This document shows positions 1,682-34,137 of a stretch of 34,844 nt of DNA, one piece after another. Under the pieces are notes generated by a model, which worked only from the letters and a program-made list of their open reading frames with translations, was not told where the DNA came from and did not search any database. Origin of the DNA: Nostoc linckia FACHB-104. Lineage in GTDB: Bacteria > Cyanobacteriota > Cyanobacteriia > Cyanobacteriales > Nostocaceae. Both the position numbers and the translations under genes were made by a program. The stretch is taken from positions 1-34,844 of the forward strand of contig NZ_JACJQJ010000084.1 in assembly GCF_014696615.1 (NCBI RefSeq), given 5' to 3'. How positions within the stretch are numbered: position 1 is the stretch's first letter; each line of letters begins with the position of its first letter.

Positions 1682-2863
1682 ATGTCCTTCAAAATCCTCA
1701 GTATGGATGGTGGCGGGATGCGTGGAGTGATTACTGCACGGATACTCCAAGAAGTTGAACAACAGATTAGAAGACAGAAAGGCCAGTCTTTACATGAATA
1801 CTTCGACCTCATTGCCGGTACTTCTACTGGTTCAATTTTAGCAGCGGGAATTGCTTTAGGTAAAACTAGTGCAGAACTGATAGATCTATATGTGAATAAG
1901 GGTAAATACATCTTCCCCCTCAAAATTAAAAATCGCTATAAAAGGTTTCCATCTTTCATACAACCCATTCTAGAAGCGTTTTCACCTAGTAAATACTCTC
2001 ATGAAGGGCTAATTAAAGTTCTGATAGATGAGTTGGGATACCGCAGAATTCAAGATATAGAAAATCCGATTATTTTGATTTTGGCTTATGATACCCTTTA
2101 TCGCAACACAACCTTTTTTACAAATTGTCATCCCGATTTAGGCTACCGTTGGTACGATGAATGTTATTTATGGCAGTTATGTGTGGCTTCGGCAGCAGCG
2201 CCTTCGTTTTTTCCACCTTATAACTTAGAGCCTGTTAATAAAGAGAAATTTGGCAATTGGGTATTTCCACATATTGATGGTGGCGTATCAGCTAATAATC
2301 CGGCTTTAGCGGCGCTAAGTTTAATTATGAGAATTAGTCAATGTTCAGATCGGGTTGTTTCCCAGGAAACAAAATGCAAATATAGGCTAGATAACCTGCA
2401 GATGGAAGACATCTCTATCCTTTCGATTGGAACTGGTCAAACTGGCGAACCTTATCAATTTGAGCAAATCAATAAGTGGAAGCCTTTAGACTGGGCACAA
2501 CATATTCCTGATATTTTTATGGAGCCTACGTCTGAGGTTAATAGCACTATTTGTCGCCAGATTATGGGTGGATATGAATCTCAACGGTATTTACGCCTTC
2601 AGTTTGACCTCAATGAGAGATTTAAGGCGAAGCCAGGAGAAACATATAGAGACAGTAGAGTCTTATTGCGGCCAGAAGAACGGAAAAATAAGTATACAGA
2701 TATAAAAGTGAGTGAAGATATAGATAACGCTCACAGGGAGATTATTAGACAATGGATAGATACTACATCTGCATACATAGATGAAGGTCATGCATACTAT
2801 ACGAGAGATGATGTAGGGCCTAAAGTAAAAGATGCGATCGCATCTTTTATTGCTGTTAACTAG
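1682..2863 (+). CDS. Patatin-like phospholipase (CapV/cPLA2-like fold)
   Basis: A 393-aa lipid acyl hydrolase of the patatin family. The glycine-rich oxyanion loop DGGGMRG is at residues 9-15, the nucleophile elbow GTSTG at 46-50 (Ser48), and the dyad Asp is in DGG at 199-201 (Asp199). These are all the catalytic elements, so the enzyme should be active on membrane glycerolipids. There is no signal peptide, so it is cytosolic or peripheral. The start follows an ideal Shine-Dalgarno sequence (TTAGGAGAATAACT-ATG). The length fits bacterial patatins of the cyanobacterial type. The gene is monocistronic: a strong double hairpin follows at 2918-2958. Related proteins act as phage-defence effectors (CapV in CBASS), but there is no nucleotide cyclase beside this one, so a housekeeping or signalling lipase is the simpler reading. 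Confidence 0.93.
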   Translation: MSFKILSMDGGGMRGVITARILQEVEQQIRRQKGQSLHEYFDLIAGTSTGSILAAGIALGKTSAELIDLYVNKGKYIFPLKIKNRYKRFPSFIQPILEAFSPSKYSHEGLIKVLIDELGYRRIQDIENPIILILAYDTLYRNTTFFTNCHPDLGYRWYDECYLWQLCVASAAAPSFFPPYNLEPVNKEKFGNWVFPHIDGGVSANNPALAALSLIMRISQCSDRVVSQETKCKYRLDNLQMEDISILSIGTGQTGEPYQFEQINKWKPLDWAQHIPDIFMEPTSEVNSTICRQIMGGYESQRYLRLQFDLNERFKAKPGETYRDSRVLLRPEERKNKYTDIKVSEDIDNAHREIIRQWIDTTSAYIDEGHAYYTRDDVGPKVKDAIASFIAVN

Positions 2864-2958: not shown

Positions 2959-3885
2959 CCACAATCAGGATTTTTGTGTTTGTTTCAGTAAGAGCTACAT
3001 ATTAATGATAAAAATTTCGGTTTCTGAATGTAGGATTCAATTAAATTATTAAATATATTAATCTCTCCAGACAAATTTTATCTGTATAAATATTTAATTT
3101 ATCAGCAAAATAATCTACCTAAGCCTAAGTTATACTGCTGAAATCAGTTTAGTGATTTTGAAACTTTTAAAAAAAATATTTCGGTATTTCAGTATTATGG
3201 AAGTTTTCTCAGTAATTTGAGAAAGTCTGACTAGACAATAAATCTCTGTTAGTTATGTATAAACGCTGTTTTCAAGCAATCAAAAATACAGATATGCTTA
3301 GATAACAAATCTTAAAATTTGCAAAAATGCAAATCAAACAATAGATTTAACAGTATTGTGCCAGCAGGCTGATTACTGTTGTAAAAGATTAAATTATAAC
3401 CACCCAACAATCATTACAACAAGCTCGTAACTCCATCTTCTTAAGGTAATTTAAGGATGATAAAGCATAATGCCAGCAGCTCACAAAATCCCGGCAATAT
3501 TAATAGCAGAACTAAAATCAATTCTCAAAAGAGTTGTTTTTTGAATGCAGGCATTGATTAAATCTGGTAATTACCTAGCACTGCTATGCAAAAATCAATC
3601 AATTTTAGATTTGCGTTAGCGAAGCGATAGCTCTGCATGGCTTCTTATAGAGAAGAACAAGTATCTTTTTGATACGCTCGCAAGAAAAGTGGTGTAGAGC
3701 AAACAAAAACCAATCCAAAATCTAAAATTGCTACAGTCAACAGCAGCCAGATGTCAGTTCATCAGACTTCTACCACAAGAGAAACCTTATCTCTATGGTA
3801 TTTAAGCTACGCGTGGCATTTCCTTCGCCAGCAGGATAGCAACTAGCATTTAAAAGTCAAACATTGTTTATTCTAAACTTTTGTC

Positions 3886-4062: not shown

Positions 4063-4111
4063 GTCATTTGGGTCTTGTGTACATTTAGCAAACAAATTAG
4101 GTAAGACAACA

Positions 4112-4153
4112 ATGTTAATTAATTCCTCAGATGAACGTGGTAGCGGCAGATAG
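4112..4153 (+). CDS. patS: PatS heterocyst-inhibitor peptide (13 aa)
   Basis: ATG 4112 opens a 13-codon frame, MLINSSDERGSGR, stopped by TAG at 4151-4153. The C-terminal ERGSGR is the diagnostic PatS signature; the Nostoc sp. PCC 7120 peptide ends CDERGSGR and likewise has a Met-Leu-Val-Asn start at this position. PatS is made in differentiating cells. A C-terminal fragment moves to neighbouring cells, binds HetR and prevents it from binding DNA, so that heterocysts stay spaced. TTAGGTAAG is suitably placed as a Shine-Dalgarno sequence (AGG 10 nt before ATG), and no in-frame upstream ATG lies nearby, so the short 13-aa form is the likely product. Two residues differ from the PCC 7120 core (Phe-Cys replaced by Ser-Ser). 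It lies alone in AT-rich DNA between a patatin and a haem-oxygenase-like gene. Confidence 0.92.
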   Translation: MLINSSDERGSGR

Positions 4154-4590: not shown

Positions 4591-5709
4591 ATGCAAAACA
4601 ATCTGGTTATGTTCCCCAGCCTGAAGGTGGCAGGGAATGATTCACACGCAACGAAAACAAAGCCTACTAAATACAATTACGCTGAGCAGCTGTTTATAGA
4701 ACTGCTAGCAACGGAAAATTTAGATGAGCAACTAGAAAATGTTGCTGGGAAAGTCAAGGCGTTTGAACAGACGCTGTCAATAGCAATTCATGCAGCTTAT
4801 GAAAATGGCTGTGGTGAGCAAGATGCTCATCTGTTTTTGCAAAGAATACTTTATCGGATTAATCGACTAAATTTGTTTTGGTATGACGATTTGCGACATT
4901 ATGACAATGAGAGATCGCTTTACTTGTCTTCATGTCGTAATCAAATCGAAGCTGCTTGGCAAGCTTGGGAACTAGCGCAATTCGATTTGCCAAGATTGCA
5001 AAAATTGAATGTCAAACAAGCACTTACTGAACGTGCATCTTTTGATGTTGATCCACCGTTATCGGCGGATAGTCGCTATATTCGTGAAGAAATGAGCGAG
5101 GTTGGCTATCGTCACTTATTAGCGATCGCATCTTTTGATGGCTTAGTAGAAGGTAGCCGTATGACCAACATTTTGGGTGGTGCGGCGAATGAAGTGCAAT
5201 GTACGCTGGTACGGGTCTTTTTGGAAGAATACGGTAACGGTCGCTTACCTCGCAAGCACTCGACATTTTTTGCCCAAATGTTAGATGAATTTGGGATGAA
5301 TACTGAACCCGAGGGATATTTTGATTTAGTACCTTGGGAAGTTTTAGCTTGTGATAACCATAATTTCTTAACTACGCAGCGTAAACGCTATTTTCTGCGC
5401 TACAGTGGTGCATTAACCTATTTTGAAGTGGCTGGCCCAGCTGCTTATAGAAATTATTTGACGGCGGCACAACGATTGGGACTGTCACAAGCAGCGATGG
5501 GTTATTGGGAATTGCATATTAAGGAAGATGAACGCCACGGTCGTTGGATGTTGGATGATGTGGCTTTACCTTTGGCAGATAAGTATCCCGATGATGCTTG
5601 GGAATTGGTACTGGGTTATGACCAAGAGAAATTGATGGGCGATCGCGCTGCAAAAGCTGTTGTTCGTTCAATACGTGAAGTTGAACAAGCTGCTTTAGGT
5701 AGTAGATAA
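4591..5709 (+). CDS. Iron-containing redox enzyme, haem-oxygenase-like fold (HDO-type)
   Basis: A 372-aa, mostly helical protein. The pattern LEEYGNGRLPRKHS at about 211-224 and ELHIKEDERHGRW at about 307-319 supplies Glu212/Glu213, His223, His309, Asp313, Glu314 and His316. These are placed like the metal ligands of the haem-oxygenase-like diiron oxidases annotated as 'iron-containing redox enzyme family'. Members oxidise very different substrates (amino acids, fatty acids, N-oxygenation), so the substrate cannot be read here. The first 30 residues are polar and probably disordered. There is no signal peptide or membrane segment. The start is weakly supported because no good Shine-Dalgarno sequence precedes ATG 4591. 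It is monocistronic by spacing (the neighbour lies 166 bp away, beyond a terminator). The fold assignment is likely; the ligand mapping is inference. Confidence 0.78.
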   Translation: MQNNLVMFPSLKVAGNDSHATKTKPTKYNYAEQLFIELLATENLDEQLENVAGKVKAFEQTLSIAIHAAYENGCGEQDAHLFLQRILYRINRLNLFWYDDLRHYDNERSLYLSSCRNQIEAAWQAWELAQFDLPRLQKLNVKQALTERASFDVDPPLSADSRYIREEMSEVGYRHLLAIASFDGLVEGSRMTNILGGAANEVQCTLVRVFLEEYGNGRLPRKHSTFFAQMLDEFGMNTEPEGYFDLVPWEVLACDNHNFLTTQRKRYFLRYSGALTYFEVAGPAAYRNYLTAAQRLGLSQAAMGYWELHIKEDERHGRWMLDDVALPLADKYPDDAWELVLGYDQEKLMGDRAAKAVVRSIREVEQAALGSR

Positions 5710-8992: not shown

Positions 8993-9061
8993 GTTTGATT
9001 AGCTCAGTGGTAGAGCAGCCGAAGAGGTCGGACGTAGGTTCGAGTCCTACATCAAACACCA
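8993..9061 (+). pseudogene. Degenerate tRNA lacking an anticodon
   Basis: The acceptor stem GTTTGAT (8993-8999) / ATCAAAC (9051-9057) pairs fully, the D arm GCTC/GAGC (9002-9005, 9013-9016) is intact, and the T arm GTAGG-TTCGAGT-CCTAC (9034-9050) is perfect, with an encoded CCA (9059-9061). Only 16 nt remain between D arm and T arm instead of about 21-22. They fold as a 4-bp stem with a 5-nt loop, so the anticodon loop is deleted. It cannot decode. Confidence 0.7.
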
Positions 9062-9136
9062 AGGAAGTTAGCTCATTGGTAGAGCAATCGACTCATAATC
9101 GATGTGTTACAGGTTCGATTCCTGTACTTTCAACCA
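9062..9136 (+). tRNA. tRNA-like gene, anticodon CAT (Met or Ile2)
   Basis: A full cloverleaf: D arm GCTC/GAGC (9071-9074, 9082-9085), anticodon stem ATCGA/TCGAT (9087-9091, 9099-9103) with loop CTCATAA giving anticodon CAT (9094-9096), variable loop GTGTT, T arm ACAGG-TTCGATT-CCTGT (9109-9125), encoded CCA (9134-9136). The acceptor stem has an A-A mismatch in the first pair and one G-U pair. CAT is read as elongator Met, or as Ile after lysidine modification. Encoded CCA and the damaged neighbours suggest a mobile tRNA array rather than a core gene. Confidence 0.75.
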
Positions 9137-9137
9137 C

Positions 9138-9161
9138 AAACCCTGTCCGGGTCAAAAGACA
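9138..9161 (+). repeat. Direct repeat, copy 1 (tRNA-array spacer)
   Basis: Twenty-four bases beginning AAACCCTGTCCGGGTCAAAA are repeated exactly at 9241-9264, each immediately after a tRNA-like unit. This indicates duplication of a unit made of tRNA plus spacer. Confidence 0.85.
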
Positions 9162-9165
9162 AATT

Positions 9166-9237
9166 TGCGGAATAGAGCAGCGGTAGCTCGTTGGAATTGG
9201 TATCCAAAGATCAGTGGTTCAAATCCACTTTCTGCCC
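9166..9237 (+). tRNA. tRNA-like gene, apparent anticodon TGG
   Basis: D arm GAGC/GCTC (9175-9178, 9186-9189), perfect anticodon stem TTGGA/TCCAA (9191-9195, 9203-9207) with loop ATTGGTA, so the anticodon by position is TGG (Pro), T arm AGTGG-TTCAAAT-CCACT (9213-9229). The acceptor stem pairs 6 of 7 with one G-U. T at position 37 is atypical and the 3' end does not show a clean CCA, so it may be non-functional. Confidence 0.55.
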
Positions 9238-24112: not shown

Positions 24113-25291
24113 TCAAAAGGCAGATCTGCTGGAATTTTCCCCGTGAGGATTACTCAATTTGGGGTTGTGAGTAAATGTTTCATCAGTCAGACTGTGCAAG
24201 AATGCCAGTAAATCTTGTTTTTGCTCCTCAGATAATTTAAAACCAGAGATAAACTCACTCTTGAGAGGATTTTTACTTCCATCTCCGGCAAACTTTCCTG
24301 TATGAATAGTTCGACCACCTGCTTGGTAATGGGCGATAACTTCCTCCAGGGTAGCGATACTGCCATCATGCATATAAGGAGCTGTTAAAGCAATATTTCT
24401 GAGAGTCGGAGCTTTAAACCTACCCATATCAGATGGTTTGGTGGTAATTGCATAAACGCCTGTATTATCAGGTGGGTAAGCTCCTTTACCATCAATATTG
24501 TAAAGTCCAGTGTTATGAAAGGCGATTTCCACAAAAGCTAGGCGTTCGTGAATCACTGAATCTGTGAAGTTAATGCCACCATGACAATGAAAACATTCCA
24601 AGCTTTCACTATGAAATAATTTCTCGCCTCGTTTAGCAGCTTCAGAAATAGCATGAGCATCACCGCCAAAGCGATAGCGATCGTAGGGAGAGTTAACAGA
24701 AATTAAAGTGCGTTCAAAACTAGCTAAGGCTTTAGTGAGATTGCTGAGGCTAATTACATCCTTTCCATTGCCAAAAGCTGCGGTAAACATCTGGTGATAT
24801 TGGCGATCGCTTTCTAGCATTGCCAATATTTGTTTTTCCCTTCCTACCATACCCATTTCTACCGGATGTTCGCCAAACATGGGCACGAGAGCCTGATTTT
24901 CTAACTTTGTCATCAAAGGATTAGCCCAAGTCAACACCGGATTGTAGGCAATATTAGCCAGACTCATAGAATTTCGCGGGTGTTTTTCGCCAGTGGCTCC
25001 CACAGCTATTGGTTTACCATCTGTAAAGGCTAGTGACTGGATATGACAAGATGCACAAGAGAATTCGCCTGTAATTGATAAGCGTTGCTCATAGAACAAG
25101 TGTCTTCCCAATTTCACCTTTGCAGAACTCATCAGGTTATCTGCTGGCACAATTGGCTTAGGCATCCAAGTAGGGAGATTCCAGTCATAATCGGAAGTTG
25201 GGGAAGCAGAAAAAGCTTTACCCAGTCCGACTGACAGGCAAATGGATAATAAAAAAATGCTAGCAAGGGTAAACCAGCGAGATAATTTCAT
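24113..25291 (-). CDS. MbnH-like di-haem enzyme (MauG/cytochrome c peroxidase family)
   Basis: 392 aa with an N-terminal signal peptide (hydrophobic stretch 8-24, likely cut near AFSAS), so periplasmic or lumenal. Two c-type haem sites: CASCH (79-83) and CFHCH (233-237). The surrounding sequence (LFYEQRLS, FGEHPVEMGM, FHNTGLYNIDGKGAYPPDNT, RFKAPTLRNIALTAPYMHDG) follows the di-haem family that pairs with four-Cys MbnP proteins (the MXAN_0977-like group). In methanotrophs MbnH reacts with peroxide to form a bis-Fe(IV) state and oxidises a Trp of MbnP to kynurenine. Here the MbnP partner is encoded 2.7 kb upstream in the same direction, with cydA and cydB in between. The start lies only 9 bp after the cydB stop, so one mRNA is likely. 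It could instead act as a classical cytochrome c peroxidase, but the partner gene argues for MbnH. Confidence 0.88.
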   Translation of the reverse strand: MKLSRWFTLASIFLLSICLSVGLGKAFSASPTSDYDWNLPTWMPKPIVPADNLMSSAKVKLGRHLFYEQRLSITGEFSCASCHIQSLAFTDGKPIAVGATGEKHPRNSMSLANIAYNPVLTWANPLMTKLENQALVPMFGEHPVEMGMVGREKQILAMLESDRQYHQMFTAAFGNGKDVISLSNLTKALASFERTLISVNSPYDRYRFGGDAHAISEAAKRGEKLFHSESLECFHCHGGINFTDSVIHERLAFVEIAFHNTGLYNIDGKGAYPPDNTGVYAITTKPSDMGRFKAPTLRNIALTAPYMHDGSIATLEEVIAHYQAGGRTIHTGKFAGDGSKNPLKSEFISGFKLSEEQKQDLLAFLHSLTDETFTHNPKLSNPHGENSSRSAF

Positions 25292-25300
25292 GGCAATACA

Positions 25301-26314
25301 TTATTCACTGTAGTTACCGCCAGTTACCTTACCTCGAAACACAATGTACTGGTAAAGGTTATAAAACAGCATCACAGGGATGAGAAAGCCGATAAAAATA
25401 ATCATGATTACCAACGAACTAGGATCGGCAGCTGCCTCATAAATCGTAATTTGTGGTGGGATGATATAAGGAAAGACAATCAAGCCTAAGCCAATAAAGG
25501 ACAGGATAAACAGCAGAATAGTCCAGACAAAAGGCGCTCGTTCTTCCTGGCGGTTGAGACTCTGCAAAAGTTGCCAAATCAACAGCACTCCCAGTACGGG
25601 AATGATCGCAAAGATATAAACTAGGGGTTGCTGAAACAACCGGGTTCTGGCACTTTCATAAATTATCGGTGTGGTAATTGTAATTAGCACCGCACCTATG
25701 AGAGTTGTCCAAGCTGCAATTTTGGCTGTTTTATAATGCGTTGCTTGTAATTCCCCTGTGGTTTTCCACACGAGATAAGTAGAACCAATCAACACGTATC
25801 CTTGAATTAAGGTCAATGCCACCAACACTGAAGGTAAACTGAACCAGTCCCAGGTGCTACCGATAAAGTGTCCAGTTTCATCCACTTTAATACCTTTGAG
25901 TACTGCACCCAAAGCGAAGCCTTGACCGAGTGCAGCCGTAAAACTCCCTGCACCAAAAGCGAAATTCCAAAATAATTTGCGCCTGGCTAGTTCCCGAAAC
26001 TCAAAGGCGACACCCCGAAAAATAAACCCAAACACCATGACGAAAATCGGGATATACAAGGCGTTTAAAATTGTGCCGTAAGCTAAAGGAAAAGCCCCAA
26101 ATAAACCTCCTCCCATGAGGACTAGCCAAGTTTCGTTAGCATCCCAAATGTTACTTAAGCTAGTCATCAAAATTCCCCGACGTTCTTCATCGGAGGAGGT
26201 AAGAGACAAAATACCTACCCCTAAATCAAATCCATCTAGCATCACATAGAGGAAAAGAAATAGAGCTAGAATTACAAACCAGACTTGCGGCAGAAAATAC
26301 TTGAGCGTCTCCAT
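25301..26314 (-). CDS. cydB: Cytochrome bd-type quinol oxidase subunit II
   Basis: 337 aa, about eight to nine transmembrane helices, with the CydB hallmarks YVMLDGFDLGVGIL near the start, DANETWLVL with its conserved Trp, and FGAFPLAYGTILNALYIPIF. It is the structural partner of CydA in the bd quinol oxidase that reduces oxygen to water at the membrane. I place the start at ATG 26314, which AGGAGA precedes at ideal spacing. The frame remains open to 26398, but that extra part is encoded by a repeat element and carries no transmembrane helix. It is in an operon with cydA upstream (135 bp) and the di-haem enzyme downstream (9 bp). Confidence 0.96.
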   Translation of the reverse strand: METLKYFLPQVWFVILALFLFLYVMLDGFDLGVGILSLTSSDEERRGILMTSLSNIWDANETWLVLMGGGLFGAFPLAYGTILNALYIPIFVMVFGFIFRGVAFEFRELARRKLFWNFAFGAGSFTAALGQGFALGAVLKGIKVDETGHFIGSTWDWFSLPSVLVALTLIQGYVLIGSTYLVWKTTGELQATHYKTAKIAAWTTLIGAVLITITTPIIYESARTRLFQQPLVYIFAIIPVLGVLLIWQLLQSLNRQEERAPFVWTILLFILSFIGLGLIVFPYIIPPQITIYEAAADPSSLVIMIIFIGFLIPVMLFYNLYQYIVFRGKVTGGNYSE

Positions 26315-26349
26315 ATCTTCTCCTCTGCTGCTCCACATTTCATTTTGAA

Positions 26350-26445
26350 TTTTGAATTTTGCGGAAAGTTGCGTGCGGGGGTTCCCCCCGTTGAGCAAAC
26401 TTTCCTTGGCGTAGCCTCTCCCTTTGGGAGAAGACGAATTTTGAA
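26350..26445. repeat. Palindromic repeat between cydA and cydB
   Basis: GGAAAGTT (26363-26370) / AACTTTCC (26398-26405) around a GC-rich run, then a second hairpin TCTCCC-TTT-GGGAGA (26417-26431), flanked by TTGAATTTTG-type direct repeats. The type is common in Nostocales spacers and may stabilise or attenuate the message between the two oxidase subunits. Confidence 0.6.
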
Positions 26446-26449
26446 TTAT

Positions 26450-27895
26450 TTACTGTTGTGCTTCTACAGGACGCTCATCGGGTACAAACTCCCCTGGAGT
26501 AGTATCTATTGCAGGTTTGGTGATTTCTAAACCAGGAATTGGTAGTTCTAGATTTGGCCCTGTGCGAATAATCCGGCTACCAAAGTACATAGCTGCAATA
26601 AATAACAGGGTATAAACTAAAGCAAAGCTAGTAAGTGAAACTAAGACATTACTAGCTGGTAACCGAGAAGCCGCATCAACAGTGCGAATTTGTCCGTAAA
26701 GTATCCAAGGCTGTCTGCCCACACAACGCACAATCCAACCAGATTCTACAGCAATGTATCCTAAAGGCGCAGCAAATACCCAAGCCCACATCAACCAACG
26801 CTGCTGCGTGATATTTTCGGCAGAAAGTTTACCTCGCAACCATTGCAGGGTACTCAGTAGCATTAAGCCAGCAAAGAAAAAACCAATGGCAATCATTACA
26901 CGAAAGGCGTAATAAATTAAACCTACCATGCGCGGACGATCCTCTGGTTGCCACTCTTTTAAACCGCGTACTGGTTGGGAAAGATTCTGTTTAAATTCCA
27001 AAATATATCCCAAAGCGTTAGGAATGGTAATTTCCCAATCATTTTTCTCAGCTTTGGTATTGGGGATAGCAAGTAAACTCCAATCAGCAGGTTGTCCGGC
27101 GGGTGTGCTTTCCCACTGGGCTTCCATTGCTGCCAGTTTTGTGGGTTGATAGTGATAAACTTGCTCGCCGCTTAAATGCCCAATATATATTTGTAATGGC
27201 GCAACTGCGATCGCAGCTGCTAAAGCAATCTTCAAAGATTTACTAAAGAAAGCTGTATGGCGGTGCTTGACAATGTACCAAGCGCTGATACCACCAATCA
27301 CAAACAAAGATGTCTCTAGTGTGGCAAAAAACATATGCAGCACACTATTGACCATAAAAGGATTTAAAATTGCCTGAAAATAATCGTTAACGATAAACTT
27401 GCCATTGATAATTTCTCCACCTGCGGGTGTTTGCATCCAAGAATTGGCTGTCAAAATCCACAAAGTTGACAAGTTAGCACCAAAAGCAACCAAGATGGTG
27501 GAAAGATAGTGAATGGCAGGATTTACCCTTTCCCAACCAAATAACATAATCCCCAAAAAAGCAGCTTCTAGCATAAAGGCCCAAGAAGCTTCAAACCCAA
27601 TTACACTACCAAAAAAATTGCCTACTGCTTCTGAGAAGGGGGCCCAGTTGGTGCCAAACTGAAATTCCATCGGAATCCCAGTGGCGACACCAATGCCAAA
27701 ATTGAGGACATAGAACTTAGACCAAAAACGGGCATGGAGATAGTAATCGGGATTACGAGTTTTGAGCCATAATCCCTCTACAATCACCAAATAAATGCCC
27801 ATCCCTGTAGTCAGGACAGGCCAAAGCATATGAAAGATGGCTGTTAGCGCAAACTGCATCCGTGATAGCACTACGGAATCGGATAAAAATTCCAC
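26450..27895 (-). CDS. cydA: Cytochrome bd-type quinol oxidase subunit I
   Basis: 481 aa from GTG 27895, which GGAG precedes by 8 nt; the longer frame starts with TTG at 27922. The haem ligands and proton residues align with E. coli CydA: His22 in SRMQFALTAIFHMLWP (E. coli His19), Glu102 and Glu110 in GFEASWAFMLEAAFLG (E. coli 99/107), and His187 in MVNSVLHMFFA (E. coli His186). The end carries the GRQPW signature (393-397). The quinol-binding Q-loop is short, as in the cyanide-insensitive CIO-type bd oxidases typical of cyanobacteria. It takes electrons from plasto- or menaquinol and reduces oxygen; in heterocystous strains such oxidases can support low-oxygen conditions for nitrogenase. It is the second gene of the operon after the MbnP-like gene. 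Confidence 0.97.
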   Translation of the reverse strand: MEFLSDSVVLSRMQFALTAIFHMLWPVLTTGMGIYLVIVEGLWLKTRNPDYYLHARFWSKFYVLNFGIGVATGIPMEFQFGTNWAPFSEAVGNFFGSVIGFEASWAFMLEAAFLGIMLFGWERVNPAIHYLSTILVAFGANLSTLWILTANSWMQTPAGGEIINGKFIVNDYFQAILNPFMVNSVLHMFFATLETSLFVIGGISAWYIVKHRHTAFFSKSLKIALAAAIAVAPLQIYIGHLSGEQVYHYQPTKLAAMEAQWESTPAGQPADWSLLAIPNTKAEKNDWEITIPNALGYILEFKQNLSQPVRGLKEWQPEDRPRMVGLIYYAFRVMIAIGFFFAGLMLLSTLQWLRGKLSAENITQQRWLMWAWVFAAPLGYIAVESGWIVRCVGRQPWILYGQIRTVDAASRLPASNVLVSLTSFALVYTLLFIAAMYFGSRIIRTGPNLELPIPGLEITKPAIDTTPGEFVPDERPVEAQQ

Positions 27896-27977
27896 TAAAT
27901 TTTCTCCATTAGCTAGCCACAATATTTATACCAATTTAAAATTCATTAAAAGCAACGTTTATGCTTGCCAATGATGC

Positions 27978-28004
27978 GATGCGTTACGCTATCGCTAACG
28001 CATC
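27978..28004 (-). repeat. Hairpin overlapping the end of the MbnP-like gene
   Basis: GATGCGTTA (27978-27986) and TAACGCATC (27996-28004) form a 9-bp perfect stem. It covers the last codons and stop of the MbnP-like gene. No T-run follows on the minus strand, so it is more likely a repeat that also tunes read-through into cydA. Confidence 0.55.
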
Positions 28005-28945
28005 CTACTTGACTGTGATTCAACCCTAAAAAATGCTTGACCAGCAGTAGGTTTATTAGCAAATGGAATACCAAGATTAGCCATAATCCCAGCGCAATCA
28101 CCATCATCAGGAGATGACATACAACCTGGTGGGCTATTGGGTTGATTAGCGGCTAAATTCGTATTTAGCACCAACGCTGCAATGTCGGCAATCACTACAT
28201 TTTTCGTTGGATCAAACTTCGTAAAAAATAACTTGACTCTATTGCGATTGCTACAACTTGCAGGTTTTTGACTACCTTCAGCCGCTTGACAACCAGTACT
28301 ACCCAAGTGTATGGGGAAACCTTGTCCGTGATGACTGTGTTGATCATCCTTTGGACTTGCGCCTAGACTTTGACTCGCCAAATCCAGGCGCAGAAATTTA
28401 TACCCCGATAGCCAATTCCACCAGAGTGAAGTCAAATTTAATGGTGATGGTGCTGTCACAACATCAGCATGATTGAGATTGAAGGGTACACCCAGAGTAA
28501 ATTGCAGTCGTTGATAATTGCCTTTGGGTACTGTGCCAATAACTTGATTGTTTGTCTCTACTGTGCCATTTGCACAAGCACCAGATTTATTTTCAAAGTC
28601 CAGCAAGGCTACATTTTGATATTGCCATTTATTATCTTGGGTTAAGGTTACGGGTACAGTTTTGCCGTTATTATCAATCAATGCAACATCAGATACATAA
28701 AACCTAAAGTCAGAGAAAGTAACTTTTGTAGCTGGTTTGCCTAAACCAACGTAGCTTTTACCACACTCAAAAGAATGTTTGCCGACTTTGGCATTAAATT
28801 TAATACTGACTTCTTGGGTTTGAGCATTGGCGGTTAAAGCTACACCATCATTCCCCAAAACAGCAGCAAGGGGAATTGCTATCATTGCGATCCACTGAAG
28901 GCTTTTGGCTACGCCAATCGCGGCTGATTTGACAAACAACAGCAT
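27995..28945 (-). CDS. MbnP-like four-Cys metalloprotein ('metallo-mystery pair')
   Basis: 316 aa from ATG 28945. A signal peptide spans about residues 1-42 (hydrophobic core ~17-33, cleavage near TANAQ), so it is exported. The MbnP core follows: SIKFNAKVG (47-55), DFRFYVSDVALID (79-91), Trp107, Cys61 and Cys124, the cluster SLWWNWLSGYKFLRLDL (173-189), a His-rich stretch (HSHH 203-206, His213), and the Cys pairs Cys219/Cys231 and Cys275/Cys284, the last in PPGCMSSPDDGDC. In studied MbnP proteins one Trp becomes kynurenine after MbnH action, and the protein then binds copper. The MbnH-like enzyme is the last gene of the same operon. Longer starts (GTG 29080, ATG 29023) exist, but the signal peptide favours 28945. 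Domain assignment is sure; copper binding is inferred from family knowledge. Confidence 0.88.
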   Translation of the reverse strand: MLLFVKSAAIGVAKSLQWIAMIAIPLAAVLGNDGVALTANAQTQEVSIKFNAKVGKHSFECGKSYVGLGKPATKVTFSDFRFYVSDVALIDNNGKTVPVTLTQDNKWQYQNVALLDFENKSGACANGTVETNNQVIGTVPKGNYQRLQFTLGVPFNLNHADVVTAPSPLNLTSLWWNWLSGYKFLRLDLASQSLGASPKDDQHSHHGQGFPIHLGSTGCQAAEGSQKPASCSNRNRVKLFFTKFDPTKNVVIADIAALVLNTNLAANQPNSPPGCMSSPDDGDCAGIMANLGIPFANKPTAGQAFFRVESQSSRMR

Positions 28946-29116
28946 TTCTTTACCAGTGCTTAAATCGAGGTGTGTGACAATTCTCGATAACAGTGGAGTT
29001 ACTGTCAAAAGACGGGTTGTCATATTACCAAATAGCTTATGCCCTGCACCGCAAATTCTCGTGATGGTATATAAGCGCACAGTTTAATACTTGGACGATG
29101 AAGTAAAGTTGCATCT

Positions 29117-30497: not shown

Positions 30498-33107
30498 TTA
30501 AATTTGTATCTCAGCCTGAACTTCTGTTTCAACTTGAGCTTCAACAAAAGGTGTATAAATTGGAATATCAGCTTGTATGGCTTCAAAACTCACAACTAGA
30601 GAGTATGGAACACTAGCTTCTGGATCGTTATTCCAACCTTCATGTCCAACAACTGCAATAGAAAATGCTTCTGTCAGTTCAAATGAATTTACAACTGTCC
30701 AATCCTTTTGAAGAGTTCCTGAACTTCTAGAAACACCCTCAATTTTCCCGTGGTTTTTTGATCTTTTACCAAGAGTCCATTGGAAACCTTTATCCCCCTT
30801 TTCAGCATCTTCTGGAGCATCATACTCTTTTAAAATCCTTTCTAGAAACCTTTCTGGATCTTCACCTTTCTTACTACAGTCCCAGTCCAGCCAAGTTGAA
30901 AGATATTTGCGGCGATTCCTGCGGGTGCGGCGCGGTTGTGCTTTGTATGACAAAGTAACTTCTAAAAGAATCTCCAGCGATTCCCCTTGAGAACGTAATT
31001 GTTCTGGAAGTTTTACTTGATAGACATGAGCTTGTTTAGCTACAATACGGCGTTCTCCTGTTGTCATTAAAGTGATTCTATTGGAAGAATTACCCAAAGC
31101 ACGATCAACATTGGGAAGTCCGTAACCAATTTGACGAATAACGTGCAATTTATTTACATTATCGGCCATTACCCATTCTGGCCATCTTGCTGATTGTACT
31201 ATTAATGCACGGTAAAGAAGGCAACTTTCACTTGGTAACTCAGCAGCTAGACGCGCAGCAATATGACTTACTTTTGGTGCTGCAAATGATGTACCAATAT
31301 TGTCAGCAGCAACCGCTGGGCCACCATACAAAGTTGACCGGACTAATTCGGGGCAAACATCTTTAGAGGTAGTAATATTTGGGGGTGTACCTTCATCTTT
31401 GACTAAATCTCCACCATACTCAACTACTTCTGGCTTAATAGTATTCCAAATTCCTAACCCAGAACATGAAAAAGCTGAGGGTTGATCCTTTTGTGCCATC
31501 GAAGAATAAGGTGGTGAATTATAAGAATTTGCAGCAATAGAACCAACTGTTAAAGCTTGGAAACTTTGTGCAGGGTTAGCTATTCTACATGAATTTTCTA
31601 GCAGATAATCCGGATATAGTCTATTTGCTGAAAGATGCTCTGTGATCGATAATCTTGTAACAGGTTTCTGAGGATAGGGAACTCTAGGTAAATTGCCTGC
31701 TGCCACAATTACAAGAATATCTTTTTGCCATGTTAAATTATCAATAGTTGATGCCCATGCACTCATATATCTAGTAAGACATGGAACCTGGCCAGTTATA
31801 GAGTGATTAAAAATTCTGGTTGATGTTAAATCATAATAAAACTCCACGATATCTTTCAATAACTGAGGTGGAAATAGTTGAATAGGTAGGTAGCAATTAG
31901 CATCAAGCACTCTAGCATTTTGTACCCAGCAAATAGCTTTCTCCTTACCACTACGAGGTATTTTCCTCGGATAAAGCAATGCACCAGCTACTCTCGTTCC
32001 ATGTCCACCATTGCTAACATAGTCTGGAGTTTTATCAGTTTCTCCTGGAACCCAAGACCTTGAGTTTTTTGAATCAATTGCTGCTCTTAGCAAAGAATGT
32101 CTTTCTTGAATACCACTATCTATAATGCATACTCTGGGAGCATTTAATTCTGGTGACTCTAGTTGAAATGATGGAGAATCAGTATCAGATACATTATCTT
32201 GCTGAATAATTTCAGCAAACTCATCTGGCTCACTAACATCAAAAATGTAGGGAAAATTCTCAACTAAATCTTTGAGACCTTTACCTGAAATTTGAATTCG
32301 ACATGAAAAACTATCAGGCAAAGTAGCTGTACCAATCTCACCCCCATCATCTTGAAAACCCTTGATAATCTTACCTTTATAAACTTGAATAAATTCTTCA
32401 AATTCGTCTTGCCTTTCCCAGGATATCTCTTCCCACTCTTGCTCAGTTAACTGACGTTTCTGAATCCAATTATTTACTCGCCTTGTAAAATTTTCATGAG
32501 TTTCATTAGGTTTCATTTTAGGATGATTAGGTAGTTGGCTGTTGGTTCCCACACAAGCAACACCAACATCAACAGTGTATATTTGCTCTTCTTTTATAAA
32601 AAGCCAATTATCATATAATTCAGCAAATAAGTTGGGAGAAAGAATCAATTCTGGCTTTTTTTTACCATCTATTACGTCCCAAACTTCGGCAACTTTATTA
32701 CTACCATACTGATCATTAATAAACTTTTCTATCTTTTTTTGTAACTCACTAAGTTCTAAATCTGCTGATGCACCAATAATGTATCCATCTTCTGTATCAG
32801 CAATCAATTCAATGCCATATGCTTTTAAACCATCTAGATTAAAAGAACCAGGGTCAATCTGTAAGATAATCCGTCGAGATTTCAGTGCCGGCTTCCCTTC
32901 TTGCTCTCTTTCTTCTTGGGTTTCTTGCCAATCAAATATCAAAGAGTCAACCGAACTTTTGAGTTGACCTCCATGTCCTTGGCGATTACCCAGATTAACG
33001 ACTGTTATGGGATTCTTTTTTCCTCCTCCTCCCGGTGGCGATGCAGCACGTCCTTCTGTTGTCAACCTAAGGCGGATATGTGGAAAACCCTGATAACTTT
33101 CAACCAT
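30498..33107 (-). CDS. Subtilisin-like serine protease (S8), partner of the AAA+ ATPase
   Basis: 869 aa. The first 320 residues form a poorly recognised, charged, likely helical region with a Gly-rich stretch (AASPPGGGGK, 21-30). The S8 protease domain follows: Asp330 in VCIIDSG, His369 in GGHGTRVAG, oxyanion Asn472 in AAGN, and Ser607 in GTSFAAP, so the catalytic triad is complete. About 180 beta-rich residues follow (LEILLEVTLSYKAQPRRTRR, IAVVGHEGWN). There is no signal peptide, so it should act inside the cell. It is downstream of the AAA+ gene by 28 bp in the same direction. Pairing of an intracellular S8 protease with a one-domain AAA+ ATPase recurs in bacterial genomes and looks like a regulated cleavage module, possibly defence (inference). 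ATG 33107 has weak Shine-Dalgarno support. Confidence 0.9.
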   Translation of the reverse strand: MVESYQGFPHIRLRLTTEGRAASPPGGGGKKNPITVVNLGNRQGHGGQLKSSVDSLIFDWQETQEEREQEGKPALKSRRIILQIDPGSFNLDGLKAYGIELIADTEDGYIIGASADLELSELQKKIEKFINDQYGSNKVAEVWDVIDGKKKPELILSPNLFAELYDNWLFIKEEQIYTVDVGVACVGTNSQLPNHPKMKPNETHENFTRRVNNWIQKRQLTEQEWEEISWERQDEFEEFIQVYKGKIIKGFQDDGGEIGTATLPDSFSCRIQISGKGLKDLVENFPYIFDVSEPDEFAEIIQQDNVSDTDSPSFQLESPELNAPRVCIIDSGIQERHSLLRAAIDSKNSRSWVPGETDKTPDYVSNGGHGTRVAGALLYPRKIPRSGKEKAICWVQNARVLDANCYLPIQLFPPQLLKDIVEFYYDLTSTRIFNHSITGQVPCLTRYMSAWASTIDNLTWQKDILVIVAAGNLPRVPYPQKPVTRLSITEHLSANRLYPDYLLENSCRIANPAQSFQALTVGSIAANSYNSPPYSSMAQKDQPSAFSCSGLGIWNTIKPEVVEYGGDLVKDEGTPPNITTSKDVCPELVRSTLYGGPAVAADNIGTSFAAPKVSHIAARLAAELPSESCLLYRALIVQSARWPEWVMADNVNKLHVIRQIGYGLPNVDRALGNSSNRITLMTTGERRIVAKQAHVYQVKLPEQLRSQGESLEILLEVTLSYKAQPRRTRRNRRKYLSTWLDWDCSKKGEDPERFLERILKEYDAPEDAEKGDKGFQWTLGKRSKNHGKIEGVSRSSGTLQKDWTVVNSFELTEAFSIAVVGHEGWNNDPEASVPYSLVVSFEAIQADIPIYTPFVEAQVETEVQAEIQI

Positions 33108-33135
33108 TTATTTATCCAGACAGCAAAATTGAATA

Positions 33136-34137
33136 CTAGGAAACTTTGATTTCTGCGATCGCTTCTTCTAAGTGTTCTTGAATCACTAGCTCCTCTCGCT
33201 CTAAGATTGCTCGTTTAGCTGCATCTTGAGCAACTCTTACAGCTTGAGCCGCAGAAAAACCTTTCATCTGCTCAATTATCCTTGACCAGTTGATAGATCC
33301 AATTTCAATTGCAGATAGTGTTTCCTTTAGTATAAATTCTAGCTCTTGTTCTCCTGGTTTGGGTACTGCAATTAAATCATCAAATCTTCTCCAAAGGGCA
33401 GTATCGAGAGATTTATTCAGATTTGTTGCTGCGACTAAAAGCCCAGAAGATGGTTGATATTCATCCAAAATTTGCAAAAATGTATTTACTACTCGCTTAA
33501 TTTCTCCTACTTCCTGAAAGTCTTCCCTTGATTTAGCTATTGAATCACATTCATCCAGAAATAATAAACATGGATTTTTTGAAGCATCCTCAAAAACAAG
33601 TCTCAAATTGCTTGCAGTTTCACCTAAAAAAGACGACACCATTGCATCAAATCGCACTTTCAGAAGTGGTAAACCTGTATTCCAAGCTAAACGCTCTGCT
33701 CCCAGTGTCTTTCCACAACCAGGAGGGCCATAAAGAAGAATTTTTTGTCTGTAAAGCAGTCCATGATGAGCCAATCTATCTCTGGCAGCATATTCACGTT
33801 CAATCCGACGAAAACGCTTCTCAATATTTTCAGGCAACACCATATGATGGCGTAATTTCTCCCTAGGTATAATAGTTACTAGGGGAATATTAAATCTTTT
33901 ACTAGTTGGTAATTCAGTTAAAGCCTGTAAGTTTTCCGGTACTGAGGAAGTGGATTTGATTGAGTTGATAGACTTATCTTTCTGACTCTTTTTAGTAATA
34001 TTTTCTAACTGGTCAGCTAAGAGAGTATGTCCTTTACTCCGTTCTTCTTCAATTACTAGATATGTAAGTTTATCAATCGCTTCTTGATCTGAACTAGCGA
34101 TCGCTCTAAAAAATCTTTTGAGAAGCTCTGCTTTCAT
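33136..34137 (-). CDS. AAA+ ATPase (ClpX/FtsH-like class), partner of the S8 protease
   Basis: 333 aa. Residues 1-90 form a helical N-terminal part (MKAELLKRFFRAIASSDQEA). The AAA+ core is about 95-300: Walker A GPPGCGKT (137-144), Walker B LLFLDECD (191-198), sensor 1 AATN (236-239) and the Arg-Arg pair 250-251 at the arginine-finger place. A helical lid closes the domain. It should form a hexameric ring that remodels or delivers substrates, probably for the protease encoded 28 bp downstream. GAGAGG lies directly upstream of ATG 34137, a strong start. It is the first gene of the operon behind the promoter with palindrome at 34175-34211. Confidence 0.92.
   Translation of the reverse strand: MKAELLKRFFRAIASSDQEAIDKLTYLVIEEERSKGHTLLADQLENITKKSQKDKSINSIKSTSSVPENLQALTELPTSKRFNIPLVTIIPREKLRHHMVLPENIEKRFRRIEREYAARDRLAHHGLLYRQKILLYGPPGCGKTLGAERLAWNTGLPLLKVRFDAMVSSFLGETASNLRLVFEDASKNPCLLFLDECDSIAKSREDFQEVGEIKRVVNTFLQILDEYQPSSGLLVAATNLNKSLDTALWRRFDDLIAVPKPGEQELEFILKETLSAIEIGSINWSRIIEQMKGFSAAQAVRVAQDAAKRAILEREELVIQEHLEEAIAEIKVS

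Follow-up and report, generated by a model that had tools for sequence, protein, structure and literature searches.

PatS is a textbook example of a bacterial morphogen, and its induction in proheterocysts is taken as given in models of how heterocysts are spaced. PatS of PCC 7120 ends in the eight residues CDERGSGR (PatS-8; PMC5812504), and PatS of Nodularia spumigena CCY9414 has been given as MKTTMLVNFLDERGSGR (PMC3610870). A distinction is drawn between the ERGSGR form of the inhibitory motif and a proline-rich H/Y-RGSGR form (PMC5812504). The HetR residues E253, E254, D256, D270 and D278 are named as binding PatS6 (PMC4649674). Expression of patS in PCC 7120 from the transcription start at -580 is described as HetZ-dependent, with a DIF1 motif (TCCGGA) 35 bp upstream of this start (PMC7377430). 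Here we describe a patS gene in a 34,844-nt stretch of DNA (the window), which is contig C165 of a 9.39 Mb genome in 181 contigs. The gene is of a known kind; the new part, as far as it can be read from DNA, is its promoter.

The first-pass annotation had proposed a hidden patS in the window. The frame is real and translates to MLINSSDERGSGR* (Table 1). It has the features of PatS, being very short with RGSGR as its end, and its DERGSGR terminus is of the ERGSGR form rather than the proline-rich H/Y-RGSGR form. The AAG of the weak Shine-Dalgarno-like sequence is kept across the five aligned genus loci. A longer frame starting at an upstream TTG was rejected: the in-frame upstream sequence varies among genus members, and G389 and G390 have a stop 14 codons 5' of the ATG.

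Table 1. Coordinates of the patS locus in the window and of the PatX gene on another contig (C68) of the same genome.
Feature	Position	Strand	Details and basis
Patatin-like phospholipase gene	1682..2863	+	Upstream common neighbour; PF01734
Place aligning with the DIF1 hexamer of classic patS promoters	3192..3203	+	Alignments; no TCCGGA here
Conserved leader block	3251..3300	+	Ungapped matches and block alignment; putative role
Weak Shine-Dalgarno-like AGGTAAG ahead of ATG	4099..4105	+	Sequence and five-locus genus alignment; putative function
patS frame	4112..4153	+	42 nt, 13 aa, MLINSSDERGSGR then TAG; translation
Haem-oxygenase-like (iron-containing redox enzyme) gene	4591..5709	+	Downstream; Haem_oxygenas_2, PF14518
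PatX gene	C68:51095-51328		Proline-rich before HRGSGR

In a set of 388 genomes from the order, a codon pattern for DERGSGR followed by a stop matched 22, and 21 of these remained after translation (the match in G097 reads DERGSGS and was dropped); the pattern covers this ending only, and genomes without a match may still have a longer or differently ended PatS. A DERGSGR-ending frame is present in all eight genomes of the window's genus, its own included, so the conservation in relatives that the annotation had set as a check was borne out. A stricter DNA pattern retrieved 23 stretches from a collection of named genomes, every one of them titled as a filamentous cyanobacterium (Nostoc, Anabaena, Calothrix, Tolypothrix and Fortiea are among the titles). 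The 13-mer of the window recurs without change in three of these, from Nostoc sp. 106C, Nostoc carneum NIES-2107 and Calothrix membranacea FACHB-236. The looser RGSGR-stop pattern gave 25 matches in the window's own genome and 18 for its control, and the match in the window is the only one of the 25 to spell RGSGR plus a stop. Short frames are common, and a reversed DERGSGR-stop control did find 8 matches in the 388 genomes (about 0.02 per genome), but a chance match to RGSGR is extremely improbable here, because the frame is kept in 8/8 genus genomes, with a common neighbour and conservation at the codon level. Since patS is short enough for annotation to miss, species lists for this gene may be incomplete.

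The patS frame is under purifying selection. Among five close genus members only two of its 42 columns are variable, both at third positions and both synonymous. Flanking 42-nt windows in the same five members have a mean of 10.6 variable columns (9.6 if gap-free), and only 1.1% of them (1.7% of the gap-free ones) are as low as the patS frame. The final seven residues are invariant across all eight genus members; the first six read MLINSS in six members, with MLMNAT and MLNNFS once each. Judging from these alignments, the C-terminal signal is what is kept, and the N-terminal half tolerates more change.

The patatin and haem-oxygenase-like neighbours named by the annotation were confirmed by their Pfam matches. 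The patatin gene ends 1.25 kb before patS. It lies upstream of patS at all six retrieved genus loci long enough to include it (L032, a seventh, is truncated), at 4 of 12 retrieved loci outside the genus, and at several named patS loci, including L055; it is the only neighbour in common with the classic patS loci. The haem-oxygenase-like gene adjoins patS in the window and in four of the seven other genus loci, and was not found at the patS loci of the remaining three genus genomes, so that only the nearest relatives have it as a neighbour. The patatin gene also resembles the phospholipase effectors of CBASS systems (NCBIfam CBASS_lipase, 170 bits, below the cut-off of 200; PADLOC phospholipase effector, 203 bits). 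Elsewhere in the window, adjacent AAA ATPase and subtilase genes (30498-34137, minus strand; Pfam AAA and Peptidase_S8) have matches to IetA and IetS, the models for the IetAS anti-phage system, and a gene for cytochrome bd oxidase subunit I lies near genes for a MauG-type di-haem peroxidase and an MbnP-family protein (24113-29080, minus strand). Three consecutive tRNA genes (8993-9237, plus strand) were the only matches in an Rfam scan of the whole window.

The genome provides the expected partner of PatS. It has a single hetR gene, whose presence the annotation had asked for (NF009718, 624.8 bits; cut-off, 489), and this copy together with the DERGSGR end in 8/8 genus genomes supports the patS assignment. 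The HetR protein retains all five PatS6-binding residues and also R223; in a comparison of 38 genomes, 37 have the same six residues and only G303 differs. Of the 30 genomes given, 28 have a PatX match, and G330 and G360 have none. There is one whole copy of nifD (on C123) and one interrupted copy, although the nifD model also matches 3 of 14 control genomes, one of them above the cut-off. The interrupted copy contains a 16.9-kb insert bounded by the 11-bp repeats GGATTACTCCG at 32983 and 49914 of C136 (L157, G000:C136:32500-50500). The same repeat is printed for nifD elements in PMC3610870, and in size the insert exceeds the 11-kb element described for Anabaena 7120 (PMC1079853). Near one end of the insert, at the place expected for XisA, is a gene whose match to a phage integrase is weak and falls below the cut-off. 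DevB-family proteins score above the cut-off but are weak evidence, because the family also matches 9 of 14 controls (one above the cut-off). The annotation had taken patS to show that the organism makes heterocysts. While patS alone is insufficient for this, the split nifD with its excision repeats, HetR and PatX together make heterocyst formation very likely. A strain labelled Tolypothrix, PCC 7712, is reported to have terminal heterocysts (PMC9679502).

The promoter of patS differs from what is known of PCC 7120, a point that the annotation had missed. In 14 of the 21 order genomes the heterocyst-specific DIF1 motif precedes the patS ATG by 349-710 nt. The seven without it there are G000 (the window's genome), G359 and G381 from the window's genus, and G318, G372, G306 and G360; only 311 nt upstream of patS were available for G381, and G372 has its only copy near -1210. 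Between the patatin gene and patS, the motif is missing in all seven genus genomes that have this stretch (the eighth is cut off), and in G388 and G389 copies occur farther out, in or beyond the patatin gene. DIF1 is also missing at the corresponding place in two neighbouring genera. No exact TCCGGA occurs within 1500 nt upstream of the window patS. A DIF1-type promoter is a common trait of PatS and not a defining one; the stretch from patatin to patS has no exact copy of the hexamer in the window or six other genus loci. Of 22 named loci for which 700 nt or more of upstream sequence is available (L050 was too short to judge), 17 have DIF1 within 750 nt, compared with a chance expectation of about 0.08 copies per 750 nt, and the five without it all carry the window-type core. 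A scan of the DNA upstream of patS found neither HetR sites (GGGN5CCC) nor NtcA sites (GTAN8TAC), in the window or at six other loci of the genus. A search of titles and abstracts found no published description of patS without DIF1; an earlier description may exist, for example in the key paper on distribution (Elhai and Khudyakov 2018, DOI 10.1111/mmi.14003).

PatS could be genuine and its promoter still of the DIF1 type, with a degenerate hexamer and unchanged control. The window contains one-mismatch hexamers at 2965 (TCAGGA) and 3066; the former is followed by GTA after 17 nt, near the spacing of classic promoters, and G389 and G390 have TCCAGA at the same place. However, the degenerate hexamer differs within the genus, is missing from G392 and G388, and is off the place that aligns with the classic DIF1. 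One chance match with one mismatch in 1250 nt is not unlikely, and at patX these genomes retain the hexamer in its exact form. We therefore consider a degenerate DIF1 rather unlikely.

At patX, DIF1 is located 62 or 63 nt upstream of the gene in 8/8 genus genomes. Of the 28 best PatX loci, 27 have it within 600 nt (the exception is G342; a second, weak PatX locus in G327 has no parsed frame). Because DIF1 is missing at patS but kept at patX throughout the genus, patS is probably controlled differently there than in PCC 7120. The same contrast could mean that patS induction has been lost in the genus, with PatX taking over entirely and the frame surviving as a remnant. This is very unlikely given the purifying selection described above: DERGSGR is invariant in 8/8 genomes, and the five close relatives show synonymous change only. 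Of 38 hetR loci, 37 could be read, and among these DIF1 occurs about 310 nt upstream of hetR only in the seven g2 genomes (L107, L109, L110, L114, L116, L119 and L120), so its absence at the window hetR is unremarkable. The g2 hetR promoter with DIF1 also looks lineage-specific.

We compared the DNA upstream of patS in twelve pairwise alignments, with 100 shuffles each. Ten of the twelve pairs beat all of their shuffles: G388, G392, G318 and G372 against classic loci, and the window and G392 against G318 or G372. Direct alignments of the window to classic loci were weak, with 27 of 100 shuffles scoring as well for L084 and 1 of 100 for L088; the apparent relatedness of its upstream DNA to classic loci thus rests on the intermediates. 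The leader block is common to the genus, G318 and G372, and a related block is found just after DIF1 in classic loci. The patS transcript probably starts near this block. Where classic loci have DIF1, the aligned DNA of the genus and of G318 and G372 reads differently. As the surrounding DNA is related, it appears to be the motif that is missing, and not the region. Together with the patatin neighbour, the related upstream DNA indicates that the window patS is at the orthologous place to classic patS.

We built a tree from the HetR proteins of 38 genomes, in which the 14 genomes with DIF1 at patS make up one side of a branch (support, 95/88; 94% of 200 bootstrap trees), and the window's genus forms another branch with G318 and G372 (96/96). 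The absence of DIF1 at patS is thus one clade event, not several independent ones. One gain and one loss of the motif both fit the tree; the outside position of G306 and G360, whose upstream DNA may be unrelated, slightly favours a gain. Tentatively, and against our own leaning, DIF1 at patS may be an innovation of the Anabaena/Nodularia-type clade; ancestrally, patX would have been the DIF1-driven proheterocyst signal and patS controlled otherwise, a state kept in the window's genus and its neighbours. In that case, heterocyst formers would not all share the spacing circuit as wired in the textbooks.

We put the probability at about 0.95 that the window frame is patS, the gene of the diffusible heterocyst-spacing inhibitor. 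Most likely as in the known system, the peptide would be trimmed to an RGSGR- or ERGSGR-type fragment, which would move to neighbouring cells along the filament, bind the hood domain of HetR and stop HetR from binding DNA. The genus patS, which has the short start only, is probably not under the HetZ/DIF1 control known for patS of PCC 7120. PatX may be the DIF1-driven inhibitor in the genus; it would carry the early proheterocyst signal, and PatS would be set by other inputs. A conserved PatS without DIF1, beside a patX that keeps it, offers a natural experiment for telling which of the two inhibitors sets the pattern.

Among the known inhibitors of HetR, HetN is a large protein in which the motif is internal, unlike the 13-residue frame of the window. 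The likeness to HetN is the RGSGR motif found in some HetN proteins (PMC5812504). PatX is an RG(S/T)GR-bearing inhibitor of HetR that is likewise found with HetR (PMC12756182, PMC7761841). It differs from the window peptide in being about 80 residues long, proline-rich ahead of HRGSGR, and extended by further residues after the motif; with 13 residues, none of them proline, the window frame lacks the longer, proline-rich sequence before H/Y-RG(S/T)GR that marks PatX. The closest known counterparts are PatS of PCC 7120 and of Nodularia. For PCC 7120 we take the 17-residue sequence encoded by locus L055 to be the full peptide. Compared with this sequence, the window peptide is shorter, the four-residue upstream start MKAI being missing so that only the short start is present, and it differs by V3I, F5S and C6S, three substitutions in the core where the annotation had counted two. 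Unlike PCC 7120 patS, the window patS has no upstream DIF1 motif. It shares with classic PatS a HetR with the same contact residues and, at some classic loci, the patatin neighbour. Like PatS of PCC 7120 and Nodularia, it is encoded by a tiny free-standing gene, with DERGSGR at the extreme C-terminus.
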